DNA of 64,000 bases from an uncultured Tateyamaria sp. (GTDB taxonomy: Bacteria > Pseudomonadota > Alphaproteobacteria > Rhodobacterales > Rhodobacteraceae), in NCBI RefSeq assembly GCF_947487805.1, contig NZ_CANKXW010000005.1:62001-126000 (forward strand), in the 5' to 3' direction. The position numbers and the translations under genes were made by a program. Below, piece by piece: positions 3,856-14,220 of this stretch. Under the pieces are notes generated by a model that was given only the letters and a program-made list of their open reading frames with translations, made no database searches and had not been told where the DNA came from. How positions within the stretch are numbered: position 1 is the first letter of the stretch; the number at the start of each line of letters is the position of its first letter.

Positions 3856-5981
3856 CCATGGCCGCCTGTCCGGGCTGCGTTGCGGGCGCGCCGATGGCCG
3901 AGGGGCGCGCGCCTGCGGGCCTGCCCACGCACGAGCTGGTTTTGCCCACGATCCACTGTTCCGCCTGTATCCGCACGGTCGAAGAGGTGCTGGCCGCGCG
4001 CGATGACATCACCGCGGCTCGCGTGAACCTCAGCCGCAAGCGGGTGGCCATCACCGCCACGCCCGGCGCGGACCCGTCGCCGTGGATCGCCGCCCTGGCT
4101 GCCGCCGGGTTCGAGGCGCACGAGGCGCGCCGGACCGGTGCGCCGTCGGCGGATGACGGGCTGATGCTGCGCCTTGGGGTGGCGGGGTTCGCGATGATGA
4201 ACGTGATGCTGTTGTCCGTGGCCGTCTGGTCCGGGGCCAGCGACAGCACGCGGGATTTCATGCACTGGATCGCTGCGACGATTGCGCTGCCCGCCGCTTT
4301 GTACTGTGCCGATCCGTTTTTCCGGTCGGCGTGGCGTGCGGTGCGGGTGGGGCGGTTGAACATGGATGTGCCGATCTCGCTGGCGATTGTGCTGGCCTGC
4401 GGTCTGTCGCTCTATGAGACGATGACGGGCGGGGCGCATGCCTATTTCGATGCGGCACTGTCGCTGACGTTTTTCCTGCTGGGGGGGCGGGTGCTTGAGA
4501 CGCGGATGCGGCGGGCGGCACGGTCGGCGGCGGCGGATCTGGCCGCGCTGGAGCCCAACCGGGTGATGCGCGTTGTGGACGGGGCGCATCAGAGCACACC
4601 GGTCGACGCGGTGCGCGCGGGCGATGTGTTGTGGCTGGCGGCGGGGGGGCGGGTGCCGGTGGACGGCGTGCTTGAGACCGCGCGTGCGCAGCTTGATCGC
4701 AGCGCCCTGACCGGAGAGAGCGACGCGGTGTCGGTAGCGCGCGGTGCGCCGCTGGTGGCGGGGGAGGTGGTGCTGACCGGCCCCGTGACCCTGCGCGCGC
4801 GGGTCGATGCCAAGGGGTCGACCCTGCGCCGTCTGGTGCAGCTGGCCGCCACCGCCGAGGGTGCGCGCAGCCGGTACACCAGCCTCGCCACCCGTGCGGC
4901 GGGGGTCTATGCGCCGCTGGTGCACGGGCTGTCGCTGGCGGCCTTTCTAGGCTGGTGGTGGGGGTCGGGGGATGCGTACCATGCGCTGACCATCGCGATT
5001 GCGACGCTGATCATCACGTGCCCCTGCGCGCTGGGCCTTGCGGTGCCAGCGGTGGCGACAGTGGCCACGGGACGCTTGTTCCGCGCGGGCGTTCTGGTCA
5101 AATCCGAGACCGCGCTGGAGCGGTTGGCAGAGGTGGACACGGTCGTGTTCGACAAGACCGGCACGCTGAGCGACAGCGTTCTGGTGCCGCCTGCGGAACT
5201 GCCCGACGTGGCGCGCGGGGTGCTGAAGGCGCTGGCGCAGGCCTCGCAACACCCTTTGAGCCGCAGCCTGCTGCCCGCGCTGGAGGGGGTCGAGGCGGTG
5301 GATCTGCAAGAGGCGCAAGAGCTGCGCGGGCGCGGGGTGCGCGCGGTCTGGGGCGATGTGTCCGTGGCGCTGGGGGCTGCGGATTGGCTGGGGGCGGGCG
5401 CGGGCACGGTTTTGCGCGTGGGCGCGGAGACCTATCCGCTGGCCCGCGTCGAGCGGCCTGTGGCGGATGCGGCGCAGGCGCTTGAGGCGCTGCGGGCCAT
5501 GGGCCTTGATCTTCACATCCTGACCGGGGACCGTGCCGGCAATGCAGACCGCGTGGGCCGCGCGCTGGGTGTGGGCCAGGTCCATGCGAGTGTCGGACCC
5601 GAGGACAAGCAGGCGCTGATCCGGTCCTTGCAGGCGGGCGGGGCCAAGGTGGTGATGGTGGGCGACGGGCTGAACGACACGCTGGCCCTGACCGAGGCCT
5701 GGGCGTCGATCGCGCCCGGCACCGCGCTGGAGGCGAGCCAGAACGCCGCCGATGTGGTCCTGTTGGGCCAGAAGATGTCGGGCGTGCCGCATGTCGTGGG
5801 CGTCGCGCGCAGTGCCCGCCGCCGCATCCTGGAGAATTTCGCGCTGGCGGCGGCCTATAATGCCGTGGCGATCCCGCTGGCGCTGGCGGGGTTTGCCAGC
5901 CCGTTGATGGCGGCGCTGGCGATGTCGTCCAGTTCGCTGACCGTGACGCTGAACGCTTTGAGAACGAGGGCAAGCCGATGA
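3852..5981 (+). CDS. ccoI: P1B-type copper-transporting ATPase CcoI (FixI)
   Basis: A heavy-metal P-type ATPase that exports copper towards the periplasm for insertion into cbb3 oxidase. The 709-residue protein has an N-terminal CPGC pair (Cys6, Cys9), a heavy-metal-associated domain with HCSAC (Cys36, Cys39), the membrane CPC ion-binding motif near residue 390, the phosphorylation motif DKTGT near residue 434, and the hinge motif GDGLND near residue 604. It overlaps ccoH and ccoS by 4 bases each. Its place in this operon favours the CcoI role over a general CopA copper-detoxification pump. Confidence 0.96.
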   Translation: MTMAACPGCVAGAPMAEGRAPAGLPTHELVLPTIHCSACIRTVEEVLAARDDITAARVNLSRKRVAITATPGADPSPWIAALAAAGFEAHEARRTGAPSADDGLMLRLGVAGFAMMNVMLLSVAVWSGASDSTRDFMHWIAATIALPAALYCADPFFRSAWRAVRVGRLNMDVPISLAIVLACGLSLYETMTGGAHAYFDAALSLTFFLLGGRVLETRMRRAARSAAADLAALEPNRVMRVVDGAHQSTPVDAVRAGDVLWLAAGGRVPVDGVLETARAQLDRSALTGESDAVSVARGAPLVAGEVVLTGPVTLRARVDAKGSTLRRLVQLAATAEGARSRYTSLATRAAGVYAPLVHGLSLAAFLGWWWGSGDAYHALTIAIATLIITCPCALGLAVPAVATVATGRLFRAGVLVKSETALERLAEVDTVVFDKTGTLSDSVLVPPAELPDVARGVLKALAQASQHPLSRSLLPALEGVEAVDLQEAQELRGRGVRAVWGDVSVALGAADWLGAGAGTVLRVGAETYPLARVERPVADAAQALEALRAMGLDLHILTGDRAGNADRVGRALGVGQVHASVGPEDKQALIRSLQAGGAKVVMVGDGLNDTLALTEAWASIAPGTALEASQNAADVVLLGQKMSGVPHVVGVARSARRRILENFALAAAYNAVAIPLALAGFASPLMAALAMSSSSLTVTLNALRTRASR

Positions 5982-6130
5982 ATATCCTTGTGGTGCTGGT
6001 GCCGTGTTCGCTGATCCTGGGGCTGGGGGCGCTGGTGGCCTTTGTCTGGACCCTGCGGCACGACCAATATGATGATCCCGCAGGCGATGCGGCCCGGATC
6101 CTGCTGGAGGACCGCGCGCCCGAGGGCTGA
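5978..6130 (+). CDS. ccoS: cbb3 oxidase assembly protein CcoS
   Basis: A 50-residue single-pass membrane protein. It starts MNILVVLVPCSLILGLGALV and carries the W-x4-HDQYDDPAGDA stretch diagnostic of CcoS, followed by an acidic tail. CcoS is needed for cofactor insertion into the cbb3 catalytic subunit. The ATG overlaps the ccoI stop (ATGA). It closes the ccoGHIS operon. Confidence 0.95.
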   Translation: MNILVVLVPCSLILGLGALVAFVWTLRHDQYDDPAGDAARILLEDRAPEG

Positions 6131-6342
6131 GGCGCAGAAATCGTTTGACCGGCGCGCAAGGTGCGTTCCATGATCGGCGTACAAACAACGCAAGGGCACG
6201 CGCCGATGCTGAGATCCGTCACCAACCCCATGTCACGCCGCGCGACCGGCTGTGATCTGGTGGTGCAGACAGGGGCCTGACCGCCCCCACCTGTTCTGCG
6301 CCCGCCGCCTCGGGCCGCGCCCCTTGCTGATCGATCCCTGCC
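6131..6342. other. Intergenic region between ccoS and the hyuA operon
   Basis: These 212 bases must hold the end of the cco transcript and the promoter of the hyuA-led operon. I see no clear intrinsic terminator. A possible 24-codon open frame (ATG 6206, stop 6278-6280) starting MLRSVTNPMSRRATG could be a leader peptide, but no strong ribosome binding site supports it. Confidence 0.3.
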
Positions 6343-8439
6343 ATGACCCACGCCTTGCGCCTTGCCATCGATATCGGTGGCACGTTTACCGACACTGTTC
6401 TTATGGACGACGCAGGCGCCGTTCTGGCTACGGCCAAGACGCCGACGACCCCGGCCATGCCTGCCGATGGCGCGCTGGACGGGGCGGGCGATGTGCTGGC
6501 GCGTGTCGGGGCAGACTGGTCCGATATCACGGGGTTCATCCACGGCACGACGCTGGCCACCAATGCGCTGATCGAGCGGCGCGGCGCGCGGGTGGCCACG
6601 ATCACCACGGCAGGGTTCCGCGATATCCTCGAGATCGCCTATGAGCGGCGGTACAGCCAATATGCCATCGACATCGAAAAGCCGGATCTGCTGGTGCCGC
6701 GGGCGCGGGCCTTTACCATTGGCGAACGGGTGGACGTGCACGGCGCGGTCCGCGCGCCGCTGGACGAGGAGGCGGTGCCGGCCCTTGCCGCCGCCCTGCG
6801 CGCCGCGAGGGTCGAGGCGGTGGCGATCTGCCTCTTGCACAGCTATGCCAACCCCGCCCACGAGCGCCGCCTTGCCACGCTGCTGCGCGCGCATCTGCCG
6901 GATGTGGCCCTGTCACTGAGCCATGAGGTCAGCCCCGAGGCGCGCGAGTTCGATCGGCTGTGCACGACCATTGCCAACGCGTATATCCAGCCGCTGATGG
7001 CGCAGTACCTCGACGCCTTCCAGCGCCGGTTCGAGGCGGCGGGCCTGCGCTGTCCGATCCTGATGATGACGGCGGGGGGCGGGATGACCACGGTTGCGAC
7101 GGCGGCCCAGCTGCCCATCCGGCTGGTGGAATCGGGCCCGGCGGGGGGTGCCATCCTGGCCGCGCGGCTGGCGCAGCAGGCGGGGGCGGATGAGGTGCTG
7201 TCCTTTGACATGGGGGGGACCACGGCCAAGCTGTGCCTGATCGACGGGTTCCGCCCGCAATCGGCGCGCCGGTTCGAGATTGCCCGCGCGGAAAGGTTCG
7301 TCAAAGGGTCGGGCATGCCGGTGCGCATTCCGGTCATCGAGATGATCGAGATCGGCGCGGGCGGCGGGTCCACTGCGCGGGTGGACCGGATTGGCCGGGT
7401 GCAGGTCGGCCCGCACAGTGCCGGATCCGAGCCGGGGCCTGCCGCCTTTGGGCGTGGGGGCGTGCAGGCGACGGTGACGGATGCGGATGTGGTGCAGGGG
7501 CTGATTGACCCCGCGCGCTTTGCCGAGGGACGCCTGGCCATCGACGAGGATGCGGCACGGGCCGCCGTGGCGCGCGATGTGGCCGCGCCGCTGGGGGTGG
7601 CGGCGGACCGCGCGGCCTTTGGCATCAGCGACATCGTGGACGAGAACATGGCCAGTGCGGGCCGGATGCACGCGGTGGAATCGGGCAAGGATCTGGGCGC
7701 GCGGGTGATGATTGCCTTTGGCGGCAACGGGCCGCTACATGCCACGCGGGTGGCGCGGCGGTCGCAGATCCGGCGCATCCTTATCCCCCGTGATCCGGGT
7801 GTGGGATCCGCCGTCGGGTTCCTTCATGCGCCCGTGTCCTTCGAGATCGTACGGTCGCGGCACAGTCTGCTGGAGGGTTTGGACATCCCCGGTCTGAACG
7901 CGTTTTTCGCCGAGATGCAGGCCGAGGCCGAACGGGTCGTGGATGCGGGCGCGCGCGGATCGGCGCGGCATGTGCGGCGGGTGGCCTTCATGCGCTACCG
8001 GGGGCAGGGCCACGAGATCGAGATCCCGCTGCCCGACAGGCCGCTGGAGCCGGGTGATGTGGAGGTGCTGCGCGCCGGGTTCGAGGCCGAGTACAGCCGC
8101 CAGTTCACCCGCACGGTGCCGGGCATGGTGATCGAGGTGCTGAACTGGGCGATATCCGTGTCGACACCGCCCGGGGATGTCGCCCCGGTGGCGGTGGTTG
8201 CGCCGCGTGCCATTGTTGCGCCTGAACGGACCCGCGAGGTGCTGTGTGATGTGACGGGGGACTGGCGTGCGGCGGGGGTCTTTGACCGCGCGGACCTGCG
8301 GCCCGGCGACCGGGTGGCAGGGCCTGCGCTGATCACCGAGCCGCAGACCACCACATTTGTCAGCGCGGATTTTGCCGCGGAAATGGACGGGGCCGGATGT
8401 CTCTGGCTGACCCGCCTGCCAGAGGAGACTGCGCCATGA
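6343..8439 (+). CDS. Hydantoinase/oxoprolinase family protein, subunit A (HyuA-like)
   Basis: A 698-residue protein of the HyuA/oxoprolinase N-terminal family, which uses ATP to open cyclic amides or carboxylate ketones. The actin-like ATPase signature DIGGTFTD is at residues 10-17. The typical GTTLATNALIERRG and SFDMGGTTAKLCLI blocks follow, as does the GAGGGSTARVD motif. It is the first gene of a six-gene operon and overlaps the B subunit by 4 bases. Family members act on hydantoins, 5-oxoproline, N-methylhydantoin, acetone or acetophenone, so the substrate cannot be read from sequence alone. Confidence 0.9.
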   Translation: MTHALRLAIDIGGTFTDTVLMDDAGAVLATAKTPTTPAMPADGALDGAGDVLARVGADWSDITGFIHGTTLATNALIERRGARVATITTAGFRDILEIAYERRYSQYAIDIEKPDLLVPRARAFTIGERVDVHGAVRAPLDEEAVPALAAALRAARVEAVAICLLHSYANPAHERRLATLLRAHLPDVALSLSHEVSPEAREFDRLCTTIANAYIQPLMAQYLDAFQRRFEAAGLRCPILMMTAGGGMTTVATAAQLPIRLVESGPAGGAILAARLAQQAGADEVLSFDMGGTTAKLCLIDGFRPQSARRFEIARAERFVKGSGMPVRIPVIEMIEIGAGGGSTARVDRIGRVQVGPHSAGSEPGPAAFGRGGVQATVTDADVVQGLIDPARFAEGRLAIDEDAARAAVARDVAAPLGVAADRAAFGISDIVDENMASAGRMHAVESGKDLGARVMIAFGGNGPLHATRVARRSQIRRILIPRDPGVGSAVGFLHAPVSFEIVRSRHSLLEGLDIPGLNAFFAEMQAEAERVVDAGARGSARHVRRVAFMRYRGQGHEIEIPLPDRPLEPGDVEVLRAGFEAEYSRQFTRTVPGMVIEVLNWAISVSTPPGDVAPVAVVAPRAIVAPERTREVLCDVTGDWRAAGVFDRADLRPGDRVAGPALITEPQTTTFVSADFAAEMDGAGCLWLTRLPEETAP

Positions 8440-10085
8440 GCCTGCCCGATACCCGTCTGCAAGTGATGTGGAACCGCCTTCTGGCGGTGGTCGAGGAACA
8501 GGGGCAGGCGCTGATCCGCGCGGCGTTCAGCCCCATCGTGCGCGAGTGCGGTGACATTTCTGCGGGCATCTTTGACGCGCAAGGTCGGATGCTGGCGCAG
8601 GCGGTCACGGGCACGCCGGGGCACATCAACACCATGGCCGAGGCGGTCAAGACCCTGCGCGCCCGCTTTGACGTGGCCGCGATGCAGCCCGGCGACATCT
8701 ACATGACCAATGATCCGTGGATCGCGTCGGGGCATCTGAACGATTTCCTGCTGATGATGCCGGTGTTCCACGGTGGTGCTGTGATCGGCTTCACCGCGTG
8801 TACCTCGCATCTGGTGGATCTCGGCGGGCTGGGCATGGGGCCCGAGGGCGCGGACATCTATGACGAGGGGCTGCTGATCCCGCCCTGTGCGCTGGTGCGT
8901 GCGGGTGTGCTGGACACCCTGCTGATGGAGATCGTGAAGGCCAATTCGCGCGAACCGGTGGCGAATGAGGGCGACATTTATGCGCTGATCGCCTGTTGCG
9001 AGGCGGGGGCCACGCGGTTGGTGCAGATGATGGAGGAGTTCGGCATCGCCGATCTGGAGCGGTTGTCGGCCTATATCATCGACACCTCGCGGCGCGGCAC
9101 GCTGGAGGCCATCGCCGCCCTGCCGCGTGGGGTGTGGTCGAGCGTGCTGCGGGTCGACGGCTATGACGCGCCGATCGATCTGGCCGCGTCGCTGCGCATT
9201 GCCGAGGACCACGTGGCGCTGGATTTTGCGGGCACGGCCCCGTGCGTCGGCAAGGGGATCAACGTGCCGCTGAACTATGCGACCGCCTATTCGGTGTTCG
9301 CGCTGCGCTGCATCATCGGGGCGGACATTCCCAACAATGCGGGATCGCTGGAGCCGTTCCGGGTGACGGCCCCGCCGGGCTGCATCCTCAACGCACAGCG
9401 CCCCGCGCCGGTGGCAATGCGGCACAGCATCGGGCAGATGACGCCGGATCTGGTCTATGGCTGCCTGTCGCAGGCCGTGCCGGACCGGGTCCCGGCCGAG
9501 GGCGCGTCCTGCATGTATGACCTGCCTTTGCGTCACGTGCCCGAGGCGGTGGACCGGGGCGGTGACCTCTTTGCGCTGGAGCTGGTGTTCAATGGCGGCA
9601 CGGGCGCGCGTCCCGCCAGCGACGGGCTGTCGGCCACGGCCTTTCCCAGCGGTGTCTGGGGCAGTCAGGTCGAAACCGCCGAAGCCGCGGCCCCCATCCT
9701 GTTCCACGAACGCGCCCTGCGCTGCGATTCCGGTGGGCCGGGCACCCGGCGGGGCGGGCTGGGTCAGAAGATCGTGCTGCAATCGTCGGATGGGCAGGAC
9801 ATGCTGGTGTTCCTGTCGGTGGAGCGTGTGCAGACCCCCGCCAATGGCCGCCATGGCGGGGGTGCGGGCGCGCCGGGGCGCATTCGCATCGGGGCGGAAG
9901 GCACGCCGCTGCCGGGCAAGGGCACGGTGCGGGTGCCGGGGGGCGACACGCTGGTCTTTGAAACCCCCGGCGGCGGTGGGTTCGGCCCTGCGCAGGCGCG
10001 CGACGCGGCCGCTGTGGCGCGCGACGTGGCCGATGGGCTGGTGAGCGCGGAGGCGGCGAGGACCCTTTATGGAGGCACGCCATGA
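8436..10085 (+). CDS. Hydantoinase B/oxoprolinase family protein, subunit B (HyuB-like)
   Basis: A 549-residue HyuB-family protein, the partner of the preceding A subunit in an ATP-dependent ring-opening or carboxylating enzyme. Typical blocks are RAAFSPIVRECGDISAGIFD, NDPWIASGHLNDF and a glycine-rich C-terminus with FETPGGGGFGP. The ATG at 8436 overlaps the hyuA stop (ATGA). An upstream in-frame start at 8397 lies inside hyuA and is less likely. The aminotransferase gene follows with another ATGA overlap. Confidence 0.9.
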   Translation: MSLPDTRLQVMWNRLLAVVEEQGQALIRAAFSPIVRECGDISAGIFDAQGRMLAQAVTGTPGHINTMAEAVKTLRARFDVAAMQPGDIYMTNDPWIASGHLNDFLLMMPVFHGGAVIGFTACTSHLVDLGGLGMGPEGADIYDEGLLIPPCALVRAGVLDTLLMEIVKANSREPVANEGDIYALIACCEAGATRLVQMMEEFGIADLERLSAYIIDTSRRGTLEAIAALPRGVWSSVLRVDGYDAPIDLAASLRIAEDHVALDFAGTAPCVGKGINVPLNYATAYSVFALRCIIGADIPNNAGSLEPFRVTAPPGCILNAQRPAPVAMRHSIGQMTPDLVYGCLSQAVPDRVPAEGASCMYDLPLRHVPEAVDRGGDLFALELVFNGGTGARPASDGLSATAFPSGVWGSQVETAEAAAPILFHERALRCDSGGPGTRRGGLGQKIVLQSSDGQDMLVFLSVERVQTPANGRHGGGAGAPGRIRIGAEGTPLPGKGTVRVPGGDTLVFETPGGGGFGPAQARDAAAVARDVADGLVSAEAARTLYGGTP

Positions 10086-11170
10086 CCCGCCCGCATCCCC
10101 ACATCGCTGCGATGGCCCCCTATGCGCTGGCCGATCTGGCCGCGCCGCCCGGTGTGCCGCTGCTGTCGCTGTCGCAGAACGAGAGCCTGTGTCCGCCCAG
10201 CCCTGCGGCCGTCGCCGCGGCGGCGGAGACCTTGGGGCAGGGTGCGCTTTATCCCGATCCGGACTGGACCGATCTGCGCCGCGCCATTGCGGCGGTGCAT
10301 GGGATCGATGCGGGCGGCATCCTGTGCGGGGCGGGGTCGCTGGACCTGATCGGGTGCCTGATGCGGGCCTATGCCGGGCCGGGGCGTGCGGTGCTGGCCC
10401 CGGCGCATGCCTATCCGTTCTTTGCCACGGCGGCGGCCATGGCGGGCGCGTGCTGTGACGCCGCGCCCGAGACGGGCGGGGTCGTGCACGTCGCGGCCCT
10501 GCTGGAGGCGCAGCGGGCGGATACGGCAGTTGTCTGCGTGGCCAATCCGGGCAACCCGACGGGCACCCGCATCCCCAATGCGGAGATCCGCGCCTTGCGG
10601 GCCGGGCTGCGCGACGATGTGCTGCTGATCGTCGACGAGGCCTATGGCGAATTTGCCGACCATCTGGAACCGTCCCCTTTCGACATGGTGGAGGCGGGCA
10701 ACACCGTGATGCTGCGCACCCTGTCCAAGGCCTATGGGCTGGCGGGGTTCCGCGTGGGCTGGGGCCTGTTTCCGGCGGCCATCGGCGCAGAGGTGCGCAA
10801 GGTGATGAACCCCAACAACATCGGCGCCGTGGCACAGGCCGCAGCGGCGGCGGCGATGCGCGATCAGGCCTATATGCGCGCCACCTGTGCGCAGACGGCG
10901 CAGGCACGGGAGGCCGCGGTTGCGCGACTGGAGCGGATCGGGCTGGCCTGCCTACCCGGTTTCACCAACTTTGTGTTGATCGACATCGGCACGGCCGCGC
11001 GGGCGGCGCGGGCGGATGCGTATTTGCGGGCGCGCGGCATTTTCCTGCGGGCGCAGGGGGGCGCGGGCCTGCCCCATGCGTTGCGCATGACGCTTGCAGG
11101 TCCGGCGGATTTGGGCCGGGCGCTGGAGGCGCTGGCCGCCTGGCAAGAGGAGGAGGAGGACAGACCATGA
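10082..11170 (+). CDS. Class I/II aminotransferase, HisC-like (PLP-dependent)
   Basis: A 362-residue fold-type I aminotransferase. The PLP-binding lysine is K216 in TLSKAYGLAGFRVGWG; VANPGNPTGT and LLIVDEAYGEF are the other hallmark motifs. It resembles histidinol-phosphate aminotransferases, but the genes around it are catabolic, not histidine biosynthetic. It more probably transaminates an amino acid released by the upstream ring-opening enzyme, or makes a keto acid for the dehydrogenase at the end of the operon. It is coupled by 4-base overlaps on both sides. Confidence 0.85.
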   Translation: MTRPHPHIAAMAPYALADLAAPPGVPLLSLSQNESLCPPSPAAVAAAAETLGQGALYPDPDWTDLRRAIAAVHGIDAGGILCGAGSLDLIGCLMRAYAGPGRAVLAPAHAYPFFATAAAMAGACCDAAPETGGVVHVAALLEAQRADTAVVCVANPGNPTGTRIPNAEIRALRAGLRDDVLLIVDEAYGEFADHLEPSPFDMVEAGNTVMLRTLSKAYGLAGFRVGWGLFPAAIGAEVRKVMNPNNIGAVAQAAAAAAMRDQAYMRATCAQTAQAREAAVARLERIGLACLPGFTNFVLIDIGTAARAARADAYLRARGIFLRAQGGAGLPHALRMTLAGPADLGRALEALAAWQEEEEDRP

Positions 11171-11913
11171 CCCATCCATCGCGCGGACGCGCCCGGTTCG
11201 GGGTGCTGGTGCCCTTTACCAACACGAACCTTGAGCCGGACATGGCGCTGCTGGCCCCGCCGGGCGTGTCGGTGCATATCGCGCGCATGGGCGGCTATGA
11301 CGCGGACGAGATCCCGGACGAAGGGCAGATGCAGGGCCTCGGCGCCGCGGATCTGAGTGGGCCGCTCGATCTGTTGGTGGGGGTGCAGCCGGACGTGGTG
11401 TTCTATGGCTGCACGTCGGCGACGCTGACCCATGGGCCGGCGTTCGACCGCGATCTGGCCGCCCGGATCAAGGCACGCAGCGGCGCGCAGACGGTCACGG
11501 CGGCAGGGGCGCTGGTGGCGGCGCTGGCGCATCTGGGGGCGGGGCGCATCGGCTTTGCATCGCCTTACGTGGCACGGATCAACGACATGGCGCTGGCCTT
11601 TCTGGCGGATCAGGGTGTCGCTTGCGTGCAGCGGGTCGATTTCGACGGGGTGCTGGACAACACCGGGCAGGGTGCGCTGACGCCCGAGGATGTGCTGGCG
11701 CTGGGCCGTCGCGCCGATCACGCGGACGCGGAAGCCATTGTTTTGTCGTGTACGGACATGCGCAGCGTCGAGATTCTGGGCCAGCTTGAGGCAGAGCTGG
11801 GCAAGCCGGTGATCTCGTCCAATCAGGCCATGGTGTTTCAGGCGCTGCAACTGATGGGGTGGAATGCGCCGCTGCGCGGCTATGGCCGGTTGCTGGAGGG
11901 GGACGTGCCATGA
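11167..11913 (+). CDS. Maleate isomerase / Asp-Glu racemase superfamily protein
   Basis: A 248-residue enzyme of the Asp/Glu racemase superfamily, closest by eye to maleate cis-trans isomerases and arylmalonate decarboxylases. The N-terminal block FGVLVPFTNTNLEPDM is typical. Two active-site cysteines are present in YGCTSAT (Cys82) and LSCTDMR (Cys195), the pair used for two-base chemistry in racemases and isomerases. Its place after HyuA, HyuB and an aminotransferase leaves racemisation (as in hydantoin racemases) or cis-trans isomerisation of a dicarboxylate as the main options. It overlaps its neighbours by 4 bases each. Confidence 0.8.
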   Translation: MTHPSRGRARFGVLVPFTNTNLEPDMALLAPPGVSVHIARMGGYDADEIPDEGQMQGLGAADLSGPLDLLVGVQPDVVFYGCTSATLTHGPAFDRDLAARIKARSGAQTVTAAGALVAALAHLGAGRIGFASPYVARINDMALAFLADQGVACVQRVDFDGVLDNTGQGALTPEDVLALGRRADHADAEAIVLSCTDMRSVEILGQLEAELGKPVISSNQAMVFQALQLMGWNAPLRGYGRLLEGDVP

Positions 11914-13259
11914 GGTTTGACCAGATTGCCGAATTTGCCTTGGACGAGCGTGCGGTACCCGAGGCGGCGATCGACATGGGCGCGCTGTTGCTGATCGACA
12001 CGCTGGGTGTGGCCGCGGGGGCCGCGTCGCTGGAGGTGGCGCGGATTGCGCGCGCTCATGCGGTGCGGTTTCACGGTGCGGCGCGCGCCGAGGATGCCGC
12101 GACGCTTCTCTTCGATGGGCGGCGGGCGTCGCTGTCCGGCGCGTGTTTTGCGGCGGCCACGCAGATCGACAATCTGGACGCACATGACGGGTACAACCCC
12201 ACCAAGGGGCATATCGGCTGCGCGGTTGTGCCCGCGCTATGTGCGCTGGCCGAGCATCTGCCGGGCCTGAGCGGGCGGGCAGGCCTTGCCGCACTGGTGA
12301 TGTCCTATGAGCTGTCGGCGCGGGCGGCGATCACGCTGCACAACACGGTCAGCGATTACCACACCTCGGGGGCGTGGAATGCGCTGGGTGTGGCGGCGAT
12401 GGTGGCGCGGTTGCGCGGGCACGACGCCGAGACCCTGCGCCACGCGCTGGGCATTGCCGAATATCATGGCCCCCGCAGCCAGATGATGCGCGAGATTGCC
12501 AATCCGACGATGCTGCATGACGGGTCGGGGATGGGCGCGCTGGTGGGGATGATGGCGGGCCTTCTGGCCGAGGACGGGTTTCAGGGCGCGCCTGCCATAA
12601 CCGTCGACAGCGCAGAGGCCGCCCCGTTCTGGGGCGATCTGGGGGAGACGTGGACGATCACGCAGAATTACATCAAGCCCTATCCGATCTGCCGCTGGGC
12701 CCATGCCGCGATTGACGCGCTGGGCCTGTTGATGCGGGACAATGACCTCAAGGCGGACGATGTGGCGGAGATCGAGGTGCACACCTTTGCCCAGGCCGCG
12801 GCCCTCTTTGCGCAGATGCCCGAGACGACGTCGCAGGCGCAATATTCGCTGCCCTTTGCGCTGGCGGTGCGGCTGGTGCGTGGCTGGATCGGGCCGGAGC
12901 ATATCGCGGGGGCGGGCCTGCGCGACGCTGCCGTGGCCGAGGCGATCGGGCGCATCCGCGTGACCGAAGCGGCGCGCCATTCCGAGCGGTTCCCGCTGGG
13001 GCGGTGGTCGGATGTGACGCTGCACCTGCGCGACGGGCGGGTCCTGTCGTCGGGGGATGTGCATGCGCGCGGTGGCCCCGAGGCGCCGATGCAGCGGTCC
13101 GAGATCGAGGAGAAGTTTCACGCCGTTACCGGCCCGATGGCGCCCGCGCGCAAGGCGGCCCTGTGGCAGATGACCGACCGGTTGCAGGACCCGCAGACGC
13201 GGTTTGCCGATCTGCTGGCGCTGATCCACGCACCATTGGAGGGGGCCGAGCATGGCTGA
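11910..13259 (+). CDS. MmgE/PrpD family protein
   Basis: A 449-residue protein of the MmgE/PrpD family, which includes 2-methylcitrate dehydratase, cis-aconitate decarboxylase and iminodisuccinate epimerase. Seen in the sequence are DTLGVAAG near the N-terminus, LDAHDGYNPTKGHIG, and IKPYPICRWAHAAIDA, which marks the family. The ATG at 11910 overlaps the upstream stop (ATGA). It lacks prpB and prpC neighbours, so a methylcitrate role is unlikely. Dehydration, decarboxylation or epimerisation of a dicarboxylic intermediate fits the context better. Confidence 0.85.
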   Translation: MRFDQIAEFALDERAVPEAAIDMGALLLIDTLGVAAGAASLEVARIARAHAVRFHGAARAEDAATLLFDGRRASLSGACFAAATQIDNLDAHDGYNPTKGHIGCAVVPALCALAEHLPGLSGRAGLAALVMSYELSARAAITLHNTVSDYHTSGAWNALGVAAMVARLRGHDAETLRHALGIAEYHGPRSQMMREIANPTMLHDGSGMGALVGMMAGLLAEDGFQGAPAITVDSAEAAPFWGDLGETWTITQNYIKPYPICRWAHAAIDALGLLMRDNDLKADDVAEIEVHTFAQAAALFAQMPETTSQAQYSLPFALAVRLVRGWIGPEHIAGAGLRDAAVAEAIGRIRVTEAARHSERFPLGRWSDVTLHLRDGRVLSSGDVHARGGPEAPMQRSEIEEKFHAVTGPMAPARKAALWQMTDRLQDPQTRFADLLALIHAPLEGAEHG

Positions 13260-14220
13260 TCGCTTGCGCGTGGTGCTGCACACGGATGCACCGGACGGGT
13301 TAACCGCACGGCTGCATGCCGCGGTGCCGGAGGCGGAGGTTCAGCTCTGTACGACCTATGAGGATTTGCCCGACCTGATCGCGCAGTTTGCCCCGCAGAT
13401 CGTTTATACCGTGCGCTTTGCGGGCACGCCGGGCTATCCGCGTGCGGCGCTCTTCGGGCCGCGCGGGCCTGCGCTGGTGTGCAATGGCGGGGTGGGGACC
13501 GACCATTTCGGTCTGTGGGATCCGGAACGGACCACCGTGACCAACGCGGCCGGTGTCGCGGCGGGGATGATGGCGGAATACGTGCTGGGCGGGTTCCTGC
13601 ATTTTACCCTGGATATTCCGGGGCTGGCCGCAGATCAGGCACAGCGCGTCTGGCGCGCGCGCACGGTGCGGCCTCTGGCCGGTGCGACGCTGCTGATCGT
13701 GGGGTTGGGCCAGACGGGGCAGGCGCTGGCGGCGCGGGCGCGGGCCTTTGGCATGCACGTGATCGGCACGCGGGCGCGGCCCGCAGCGATGGAGAATGTG
13801 GACGAGGTGCACGGGCCGGATCAGCTCGATACGCTGATCCCGCGTGCGGATTTCGTCGCCGTGTGCACCCCGCTGACGGACCGGACACGCGCCATGATCG
13901 GGCCCGCGCAGATCGCGGCACTGCGGCCCCGCGCGGTGCTGGCAGACGTGTCGCGCGGCGGGGTGGTGGATCAGACGGCGCTGGCCCGCGCGCTGGCGGC
14001 CCGTGCGATCGGCGGGGCCGTTCTGGACGTGTTCGAGGTCGAACCCCTGCCGCAGGACAGCCCGTTCTGGGACATGGACAACGTGATCCTGTCGCCGCAT
14101 TGCGCGTCGGTCTATGACGGGTGGGAGACCGCGTCCTTTGACATCTTTGTGGACAATGTCACGCGCTGGCAGGCGGGGGCGGACTTACGCAATGTGGTTG
14201 ATCCGGTGCGGGGCTATTGA
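13252..14220 (+). CDS. D-2-hydroxyacid dehydrogenase (NAD(P)-binding)
   Basis: A 322-residue D-isomer-specific 2-hydroxyacid dehydrogenase. The Rossmann motif is VGLGQTGQALAARA (about residues 147-160). The catalytic Arg is in the VSRGGVVDQ region or just before it, Glu is in FEVEPLP, and His is in SPHCAS near the C-terminus. It overlaps the MmgE/PrpD gene by 8 bases. As the last gene of the operon it probably interconverts a 2-keto acid and a 2-hydroxy acid produced by the upstream enzymes. The substrate is not known. Confidence 0.87.
   Translation: MADRLRVVLHTDAPDGLTARLHAAVPEAEVQLCTTYEDLPDLIAQFAPQIVYTVRFAGTPGYPRAALFGPRGPALVCNGGVGTDHFGLWDPERTTVTNAAGVAAGMMAEYVLGGFLHFTLDIPGLAADQAQRVWRARTVRPLAGATLLIVGLGQTGQALAARARAFGMHVIGTRARPAAMENVDEVHGPDQLDTLIPRADFVAVCTPLTDRTRAMIGPAQIAALRPRAVLADVSRGGVVDQTALARALAARAIGGAVLDVFEVEPLPQDSPFWDMDNVILSPHCASVYDGWETASFDIFVDNVTRWQAGADLRNVVDPVRGY

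Follow-up and report, generated by a model that had tools for sequence, protein, structure and literature searches.

A conserved HyuA-HyuB-aminotransferase-racemase cassette in roseobacter-type bacteria, possibly for the catabolism of a chiral cyclic amide

We analysed an operon of six genes in a 64,000-nucleotide stretch of genome from an uncultured Tateyamaria sp. (contig NZ_CANKXW010000005.1, positions 62,001 to 126,000; hereafter the window), where the list of open reading frames and profile searches confirmed six plus-strand genes at 6343-14220. In order, these encode a HyuA-like ATP-binding subunit (A), a HyuB-like metal subunit (B), a HisC-like aminotransferase (T), an enzyme of the Asp/Glu racemase-maleate isomerase-arylmalonate decarboxylase (AMDase) superfamily (R), an MmgE/PrpD-family enzyme (M) and a D-2-hydroxyacid dehydrogenase (D). 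The conserved core consists of the four genes A-B-T-R, and M and D are optional in relatives, as these two are moved or missing in many loci and the core run is mostly intact. Based on the gene set, its linkage and overlaps, the catalytic residues, the neighbourhoods and the co-occurrence of genes, all of which were observed directly, the operon may serve to break down a chiral cyclic amide (a lactam, hydantoin or similar compound), possibly often N-methylated, a reading that we favour tentatively and at somewhat less than an even chance.

Conservation was assessed across 149 genomes of the family and in 80 named loci, the latter being the best 80 of 110 from a named-genome search and mostly Rhodobacterales by record title. 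An R match of at least 54% identity was found in 13 of the 149 genomes, the window's genome included, and the other matches listed did not exceed 37%. Among the 70 named loci with at least 5 kb of sequence upstream of R, A and B were each present in 68 and T in 66, and A-B-T-R were contiguous in 63. Downstream of R, in the 72 loci with at least 5 kb on that side, M shared the strand of R in 24 (L046 included), was encoded on the other strand in 12 and was absent from 36, and the corresponding counts for D were 32, 8 and 32; M and/or D occurred in 45 of these loci and both occurred in 31.

Consecutive genes of the operon share 4, 4, 4, 4 and 8 bases, with ATGA at 8436, 10082, 11167 and 11910 and ATGGCTGA at 13252, where the overlaps rest on inferred starts for B (8436) and M (11910), the longest open reading frames of which begin at 8397 and 11859. 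The overlaps do not appear to be due to chance, because relatives retain start codons near the preceding stops: an in-frame ATG or GTG lay no more than 12 nt from the end of the preceding stop at 69 of 71 A/B, 67 of 68 B/T, 71 of 74 T/R, 26 of 28 R/M and 21 of 25 M/D junctions in the 80 named relatives. A preliminary description of the window had treated all six genes as one translationally coupled unit with overlaps of 4 to 8 bases, and had named a lack of linkage in relatives as grounds for abandoning its reading. The overlaps are as described, A-B-T-R are linked across relatives, and a single unit holds here and in some relatives, but the full set of six is not conserved as a unit.

Ring-opening activity is predicted from the first two proteins. 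A (6343-8439, + strand, 698 aa) contains the Pfam domains Hydant_A_N, Hydantoinase_A and Hydant_A_C, together with the motifs DxGGTxTD, DxGGT and GxxPGP of the superfamily of ATP-dependent cyclic-amide hydrolases and carboxylases (DIGGTFTD, DMGGT and GSEPGP at residues 10, 289 and 361). B (8436-10085, + strand, 549 aa) is a Hydantoinase_B protein with a metal tetrad (D40-H100-D103-H125) in which each residue is at least 97% conserved in 80 homologues, and which has nearly the spacing of CapB, matched by spacing without direct alignment. The ATP and metal motifs used for both subunits were taken from an excerpt of PMC8453981. Together, these domains and motifs bear out the HyuA/HyuB identity given in the preliminary description. 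Neither A nor B reaches any NCBIfam equivalog cut-off, including those for caprolactamase (455.8 for A against the alpha subunit and 179.2 for B, cut-off 1000 in each case). The caprolactamase alpha score was nonetheless the best of A in NCBIfam, with acetophenone carboxylase lower at 241.6, and the best solved relatives of B were 7hk5, labelled 'N-methylhydantoinase' (201.3 bits), and 6yra, labelled 'Hydantoinase' (152.2 bits), which we take to be CapB, with carboxylases scoring at most 68.9. These scores and the two-subunit HyuA/HyuB architecture argue against A-B using ATP to carboxylate a ketone or oxo acid instead of acting as a hydrolase. That function, which we consider improbable, would be consistent with A-B sharing a superfamily with acetone and acetophenone carboxylases, and with the presence of Lys296 in A where acetophenone carboxylase alpha' has Lys281.

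T (10082-11170, + strand, 362 aa) is a fold-type I pyridoxal phosphate (PLP) aminotransferase matching Aminotran_1_2, retains D185, Y188, K216, R224 and R335 in 77 orthologues, and scores below the hisC equivalog cut-off (230.7 vs 276.55). R (11167-11913, + strand, 248 aa) matches Amdase and is slightly below the Pfam cut-off for Asp_Glu_race (29.3 vs 31). Its two-cysteine active site, noted in the preliminary description, is well supported, in that Cys82 and Cys195 are invariant in 83 of 83 aligned orthologues and, in the alignment with the solved maleate isomerase 2xec, both fall on cysteines; wild-type AMDase has one cysteine, compared with two in R. Scores for R were well under the NCBIfam cut-offs for EutA (107.4 vs 318) and the arylmalonate decarboxylase equivalog (82.8 vs 225), and among solved structures its best relatives carry the label maleate isomerase (78.8 bits).

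The family assignments first made for T and the two accessory enzymes also stand: M (11910-13259, + strand, 449 aa) comprises MmgE_PrpD_N and MmgE_PrpD_C, and D (13252-14220, + strand, 322 aa) matches 2-Hacid_dh_C. In D, R235, E264 and H283 are each at least 97% conserved across 45 orthologues, and Arg-Glu-His is the catalytic triad of D-2-hydroxyacid dehydrogenases. Solved MmgE/PrpD relatives of M are cis-aconitate decarboxylase/IRG1 and iminodisuccinate (IDS) epimerase. His101 of M aligns with His99 of IDS epimerase, a histidine kept in IDS epimerase and IRG1, and Thr146 aligns with Tyr145, so that M does not share both bases proposed for IDS epimerase (His99 and Tyr145, in an excerpt of PMC7347537).

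The solved relatives of M, together with the maleate isomerase labels of the R relatives, would fit a chain in which ring opening by A-B turns a cyclic amide into an amino dicarboxylate, T yields an oxo acid, D a hydroxy acid, M dehydrates the latter to an unsaturated diacid, and R serves as a maleate-type cis-to-trans isomerase. The five enzyme types can form such a chain, and TRAP-type importers are found near the cluster in single plasmid records. However, R appears to be independent of M, because it persists in loci without M and D (M is absent from 36 and D from 32 of the 72 loci), and runs of A-B-R, with or without D, lack T in L048, L085, L097 and L034. The recurrent importer among annotated neighbour clusters is of the peptide type, and no dicarboxylate importer was found among them. 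We therefore regard this chain as unlikely, and none of the evidence favours the amino dicarboxylate substrate class suggested in the preliminary description.

A neighbourhood with N-demethylation genes, which the preliminary description did not mention, recurs beside the operon in several lineages. Flanking genes were clustered and cluster representatives annotated with Pfam and NCBIfam, giving as recurrent neighbours in the 80 named loci an MttB-type methyltransferase (14), dimethylglycine dehydrogenase (DMGDH)-like proteins with a DAO-GcvT architecture (12), DHDPS-like proteins (9), a peptide-type substrate-binding protein (8), SoxA-like proteins (7, that of L070 being doubtful), MlrC (5) and a class V aminotransferase (5). 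A tree of 81 HyuB proteins, built with a rapid method (of its 78 inner branches, 17 were starred and 29 open), has two main branches, and the demethylation label takes 11 changes on it. Loci of branch 2 often have MttB convergent to R, and several of them carry M, D and sarcosine-oxidase-like genes together on the MttB strand, opposite to the core. The link in branch 1 is found in L034, L082, L085 and the Silicimonas/Boseongicola group. The immediate neighbour of a same-strand core was MttB, DMGDH-like or SoxB in 12 of 59 flanks in branch 2 (~0.3 expected) and in 6 of 94 in branch 1 (~0.5 expected), where the expected counts assume one gene per kb, exclude SoxB and use densities from genomes partly chosen for carrying these genes, which errs on the safe side. 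The six branch 1 flanks represent three lineages (L034, L085 and four Silicimonas/Boseongicola loci).

The HyuB of the window is closest to that of L034 (79%), in which A-B-R-D-DMGDH-MttB-TetR form a contiguous run, and the window's genome has orthologues of the L034 DMGDH (84%), MttB (65%) and TetR (51%) at 54.3-58.8 kb of C1, a contig other than that of the window. Across the 149 family genomes, the L034-type DMGDH class (at least 62% identity, with the next class at 50% or less) was present in 46, comprising 11 of the 13 genomes with R (all except G109 and G116) compared with 35 of the 136 without R (one-sided Fisher p = 4e-5, relatedness ignored). With the L034 and window genomes, which had prompted the comparison, removed, the difference was 9 of 11 vs 35 of 136 (p = 3e-4, relatedness again ignored); for more distant DMGDH paralogues it was 11 of 13 vs 82 of 136 (p = 0.07). 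Because relatedness is not accounted for, the difference in DMGDH frequency supports a common function but does not prove one. The fullest set was found in Ruegeria sp. SCSIO 43209, where a span of about 25 kb holds all parts as well as a peptide-type ABC importer. An N-methylated substrate is plausible, given that demethylation genes adjoin the operon in several lineages and DMGDH co-occurs with R.

Two candidate further links to the demethylation genes were discarded or given little weight. The flavin monooxygenases beside DMGDH-MttB-TetR in the window's genome (L204) and after A-B-R-D in L048 share 26% identity and are not orthologous. An importer shared by L104 (5061-10513, after R) and L204 (16190-19424, after DMGDH-MttB-TetR) has three proteins that are 54-59% identical, and is of the sugar type (SBP_bac_1) behind a LacI-type regulator.

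The same neighbourhood could be read in other ways. A-B-T-R(-M-D) might be the core of an undescribed pathway of marine bacteria that degrades a chiral compound, either an amino-acid betaine or an N-methylated cyclic amide. In it, MttB-, DMGDH- and Sox-like enzymes whose specificity is not for glycine betaine would demethylate the compound, M and R would invert stereocentres, A-B would open the ring, and T and D would feed the product into central metabolism. The co-occurrence of DMGDH and R makes this slightly more likely, but we still hold it to be rather unlikely. Alternatively, the neighbouring demethylation genes may be the actual pathway, a stepwise demethylation of an amino-acid betaine, with A-B-T-R acting only on a downstream product and M as an epimerase of N-substituted amino acids similar to IDS epimerase. 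Solved relatives of MttB include glycine betaine methyltransferase, and the Sox-like subunits are below the NCBIfam cut-offs for sarcosine oxidase (783 vs 1164 for the L095 alpha and 461.7 vs 529.45 for the L107 beta subunit, cut-offs that are uncalibrated on the ordinary sarcosine oxidases of the family). Moreover, M relatives of about 46% identity in Paracoccus and Ancylobacter adjoin annotated glycine-betaine ABC importers, ring-hydroxylating dioxygenases and FAD oxidoreductases. However, the annotation around an M relative in Mesorhizobium (45%) shows no betaine importer, M has Thr146 at the position of Tyr145 in IDS epimerase, and most A-B-T-R loci have no demethylation genes nearby, leaving this explanation with a low probability. 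A-B-T-R was not found in the annotation of the four Paracoccus, Ancylobacter and Mesorhizobium stretches that hold M relatives.

A role in tyrosine or arylpyruvate catabolism was also considered, since 4-hydroxyphenylpyruvate dioxygenase is encoded no more than 10 kb from R in L043, L108, L097 and L071. In the wider set, however, the dioxygenase scored above its cut-off in 30 of 42 genomes with an R orthologue, and in 0 of 42 was it within 20 kb of R on one contig. The link was rejected on that count, and such a role is very improbable.

For a chiral cyclic amide, the reaction steps that we infer, including their order and the part played by N-methyl groups, would be as follows. A would activate the ring amide at its ATP site and B would hydrolyse it at its metal site, while R, as a two-cysteine racemase, would interconvert the enantiomers of either the ring or the opened amino acid so that both could be used. 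T would transaminate the opened amino acid to a 2-oxo acid, which D would interconvert with the 2-hydroxy acid, and M may add a second epimerisation, a dehydration or a decarboxylation in lineages that have it. In several relatives, the MttB-type methyltransferase, the DMGDH-like protein and the sarcosine-oxidase-like complex could remove N-methyl groups, either from the intact ring or once it has been opened.

Several observations weigh against this scheme. In A, Lys296 occupies the place of Asp302 in CapA (position counted from the motif). T is absent from 4 of 70 loci (L048, L085, L097 and L124), with runs of A-B-R or A-B-R-D in the first three of these and in L034, and A-B is absent from 2 of 70 (L046 and L050). 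No carbamoylase was recognised among the annotated neighbour representatives, a result more in keeping with a lactam than with a hydantoin, though proof of neither. Demethylation genes are within the flanks of only 22 of the 80 named loci (L070 being doubtful and L104 a fragment), and within 10 kb on either side, as opposed to the immediate neighbours, branch 1 does not clearly exceed what a density of about 5 per Mb would yield. In the window's genome, G149, G150, G151 and G153, DMGDH and MttB form a pair that has no linkage to R. The L034-type DMGDH is carried by 35 genomes without R, and the co-occurrence statistic ignores relatedness.

The closest analogues of a cyclic amide pathway would be caprolactam degradation with the addition of a racemase, and hydantoin operons. 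Caprolactam catabolism in Pseudomonas jessenii, according to an excerpt of PMC6061476, uses CapAB, an omega-aminotransferase and an oxo-acid dehydrogenase, and the same excerpt offers precedents for a lactamase followed by an aminotransferase and for a racemase with an amino-acid lactam hydrolase. Both systems have a two-subunit ATP-dependent lactamase of the HyuA/HyuB family (predicted in the window), and in both a PLP aminotransferase and then an oxidoreductase come next. In contrast, T is HisC-like and not a class III omega-aminotransferase, the two-cysteine racemase, M and D are additional, and A and B are far below the CapA and CapB cut-offs. In Pseudomonas sp. NS671, the racemase gene is hyuE. 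The hyuA-hyuB-hyuC genes of that strain convert 5-substituted hydantoins to amino acids (excerpt of PMC8453981). HyuA and HyuB with a racemase-superfamily partner are common to both systems, whereas the window's operon has T, M and D and no carbamoylase recognised among annotated neighbours, and its R belongs to the maleate isomerase/AMDase/EutA branch. Ectoine EutA, arylmalonate decarboxylase and maleate isomerase share the superfamily of R, but R is below both NCBIfam cut-offs and no eut partners were recognised among the annotated neighbours. On the succinamopine Ti plasmid pTiEU6, hydantoinase A/B has been proposed to open opine lactams and mmgE is located at the end of the same region (excerpt of PMC6733357). 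Those are plant-tumour opine genes, and the main text mentions no aminotransferase or racemase among them, a comparison made by description only.

In agreement with the preliminary description, no described pathway with this gene set was found in open-licence literature, including excerpts of PMC12478193 and PMC9768040, which is weak evidence of absence. Searches of the same literature for homarine, cyclodipeptide hydrolase, opine catabolism and iminodisuccinate gave no matching gene set, and the first three are leads only.

Upstream of the operon are FixH, a copper-type P-ATPase and a 50-aa open reading frame at 5978-6130, presumably ccoS, followed by 212 bases (6131-6342) before A that are partly alignable with a site lacking A-B in two Tateyamaria genomes. 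In those genomes (L046, 8250-8960, and L050), T-R-M-D occupy the same chromosomal site, after the P-ATPase, without A-B, and a fused HyuAB, 59-60% identical to B, is encoded elsewhere. No convincing A-B relics were found at the site with tblastn. DNA alignment revealed that the leader and start context before T are similar between the window and the Tateyamaria site, which suggests, but does not prove, a loss of A-B in those two genomes.

Downstream of the operon are a VOC gene (V) and then a UgpB-type importer, which the preliminary description had suspected of being unrelated. V, UgpB, UgpA and UgpE had no match among 92 loci, and UgpC had scattered matches of 26-51%, so the VOC and ugp genes were rejected as pathway members. 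The VOC-ugp block is specific to the window's lineage, as in L046 and L050, which lack it at the same site, the gene after D is the ABC gene found on the far side of ugp in the window.

Further observations concern individual loci. Leisingera sp. ANG-Vp has two A-B-T-R loci on different contigs (L100 and L106), and within the stretches analysed MttB adjoins R in only one. Metagenome-assembled genomes (MAGs) of Silicimonas/Boseongicola (L061, L072, L073, L074 and L088) encode an M81/MlrC-type protein and a peptide-type ABC importer after D. On a plasmid of Leisingera aquaemixtae (L128, 2445-15341), M is accompanied by a LysR regulator, FAD oxidoreductases, a class V aminotransferase, a second Asp/Glu racemase and a TAXI-type TRAP transporter, without A-B-T-R or MttB. 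A plasmid of Ruegeria sp. B32 (L126, 15845-18076) carries an Os1348-family NHLP peptide gene and a radical SAM C-methyltransferase of the type acting on ribosomally synthesized and post-translationally modified peptides (RiPPs), about 3 kb past R and beyond a cyclase-domain gene. On the HyuB tree, the protein of L076, a MAG labelled Deltaproteobacteria, is almost the same as the one from Rhodobacteraceae bacterium SB2, and the MAG is perhaps mislabelled or a mixed bin.

Genes for HyuA and HyuB are common, and most of their annotations name no substrate. Roseobacter-type bacteria have a compact, conserved four-gene cassette of this family that includes its own racemase and repeatedly occurs in an N-methyl context, and, if the proposed reading is true, the cassette could reveal a nitrogen compound whose breakdown lacks assigned genes.

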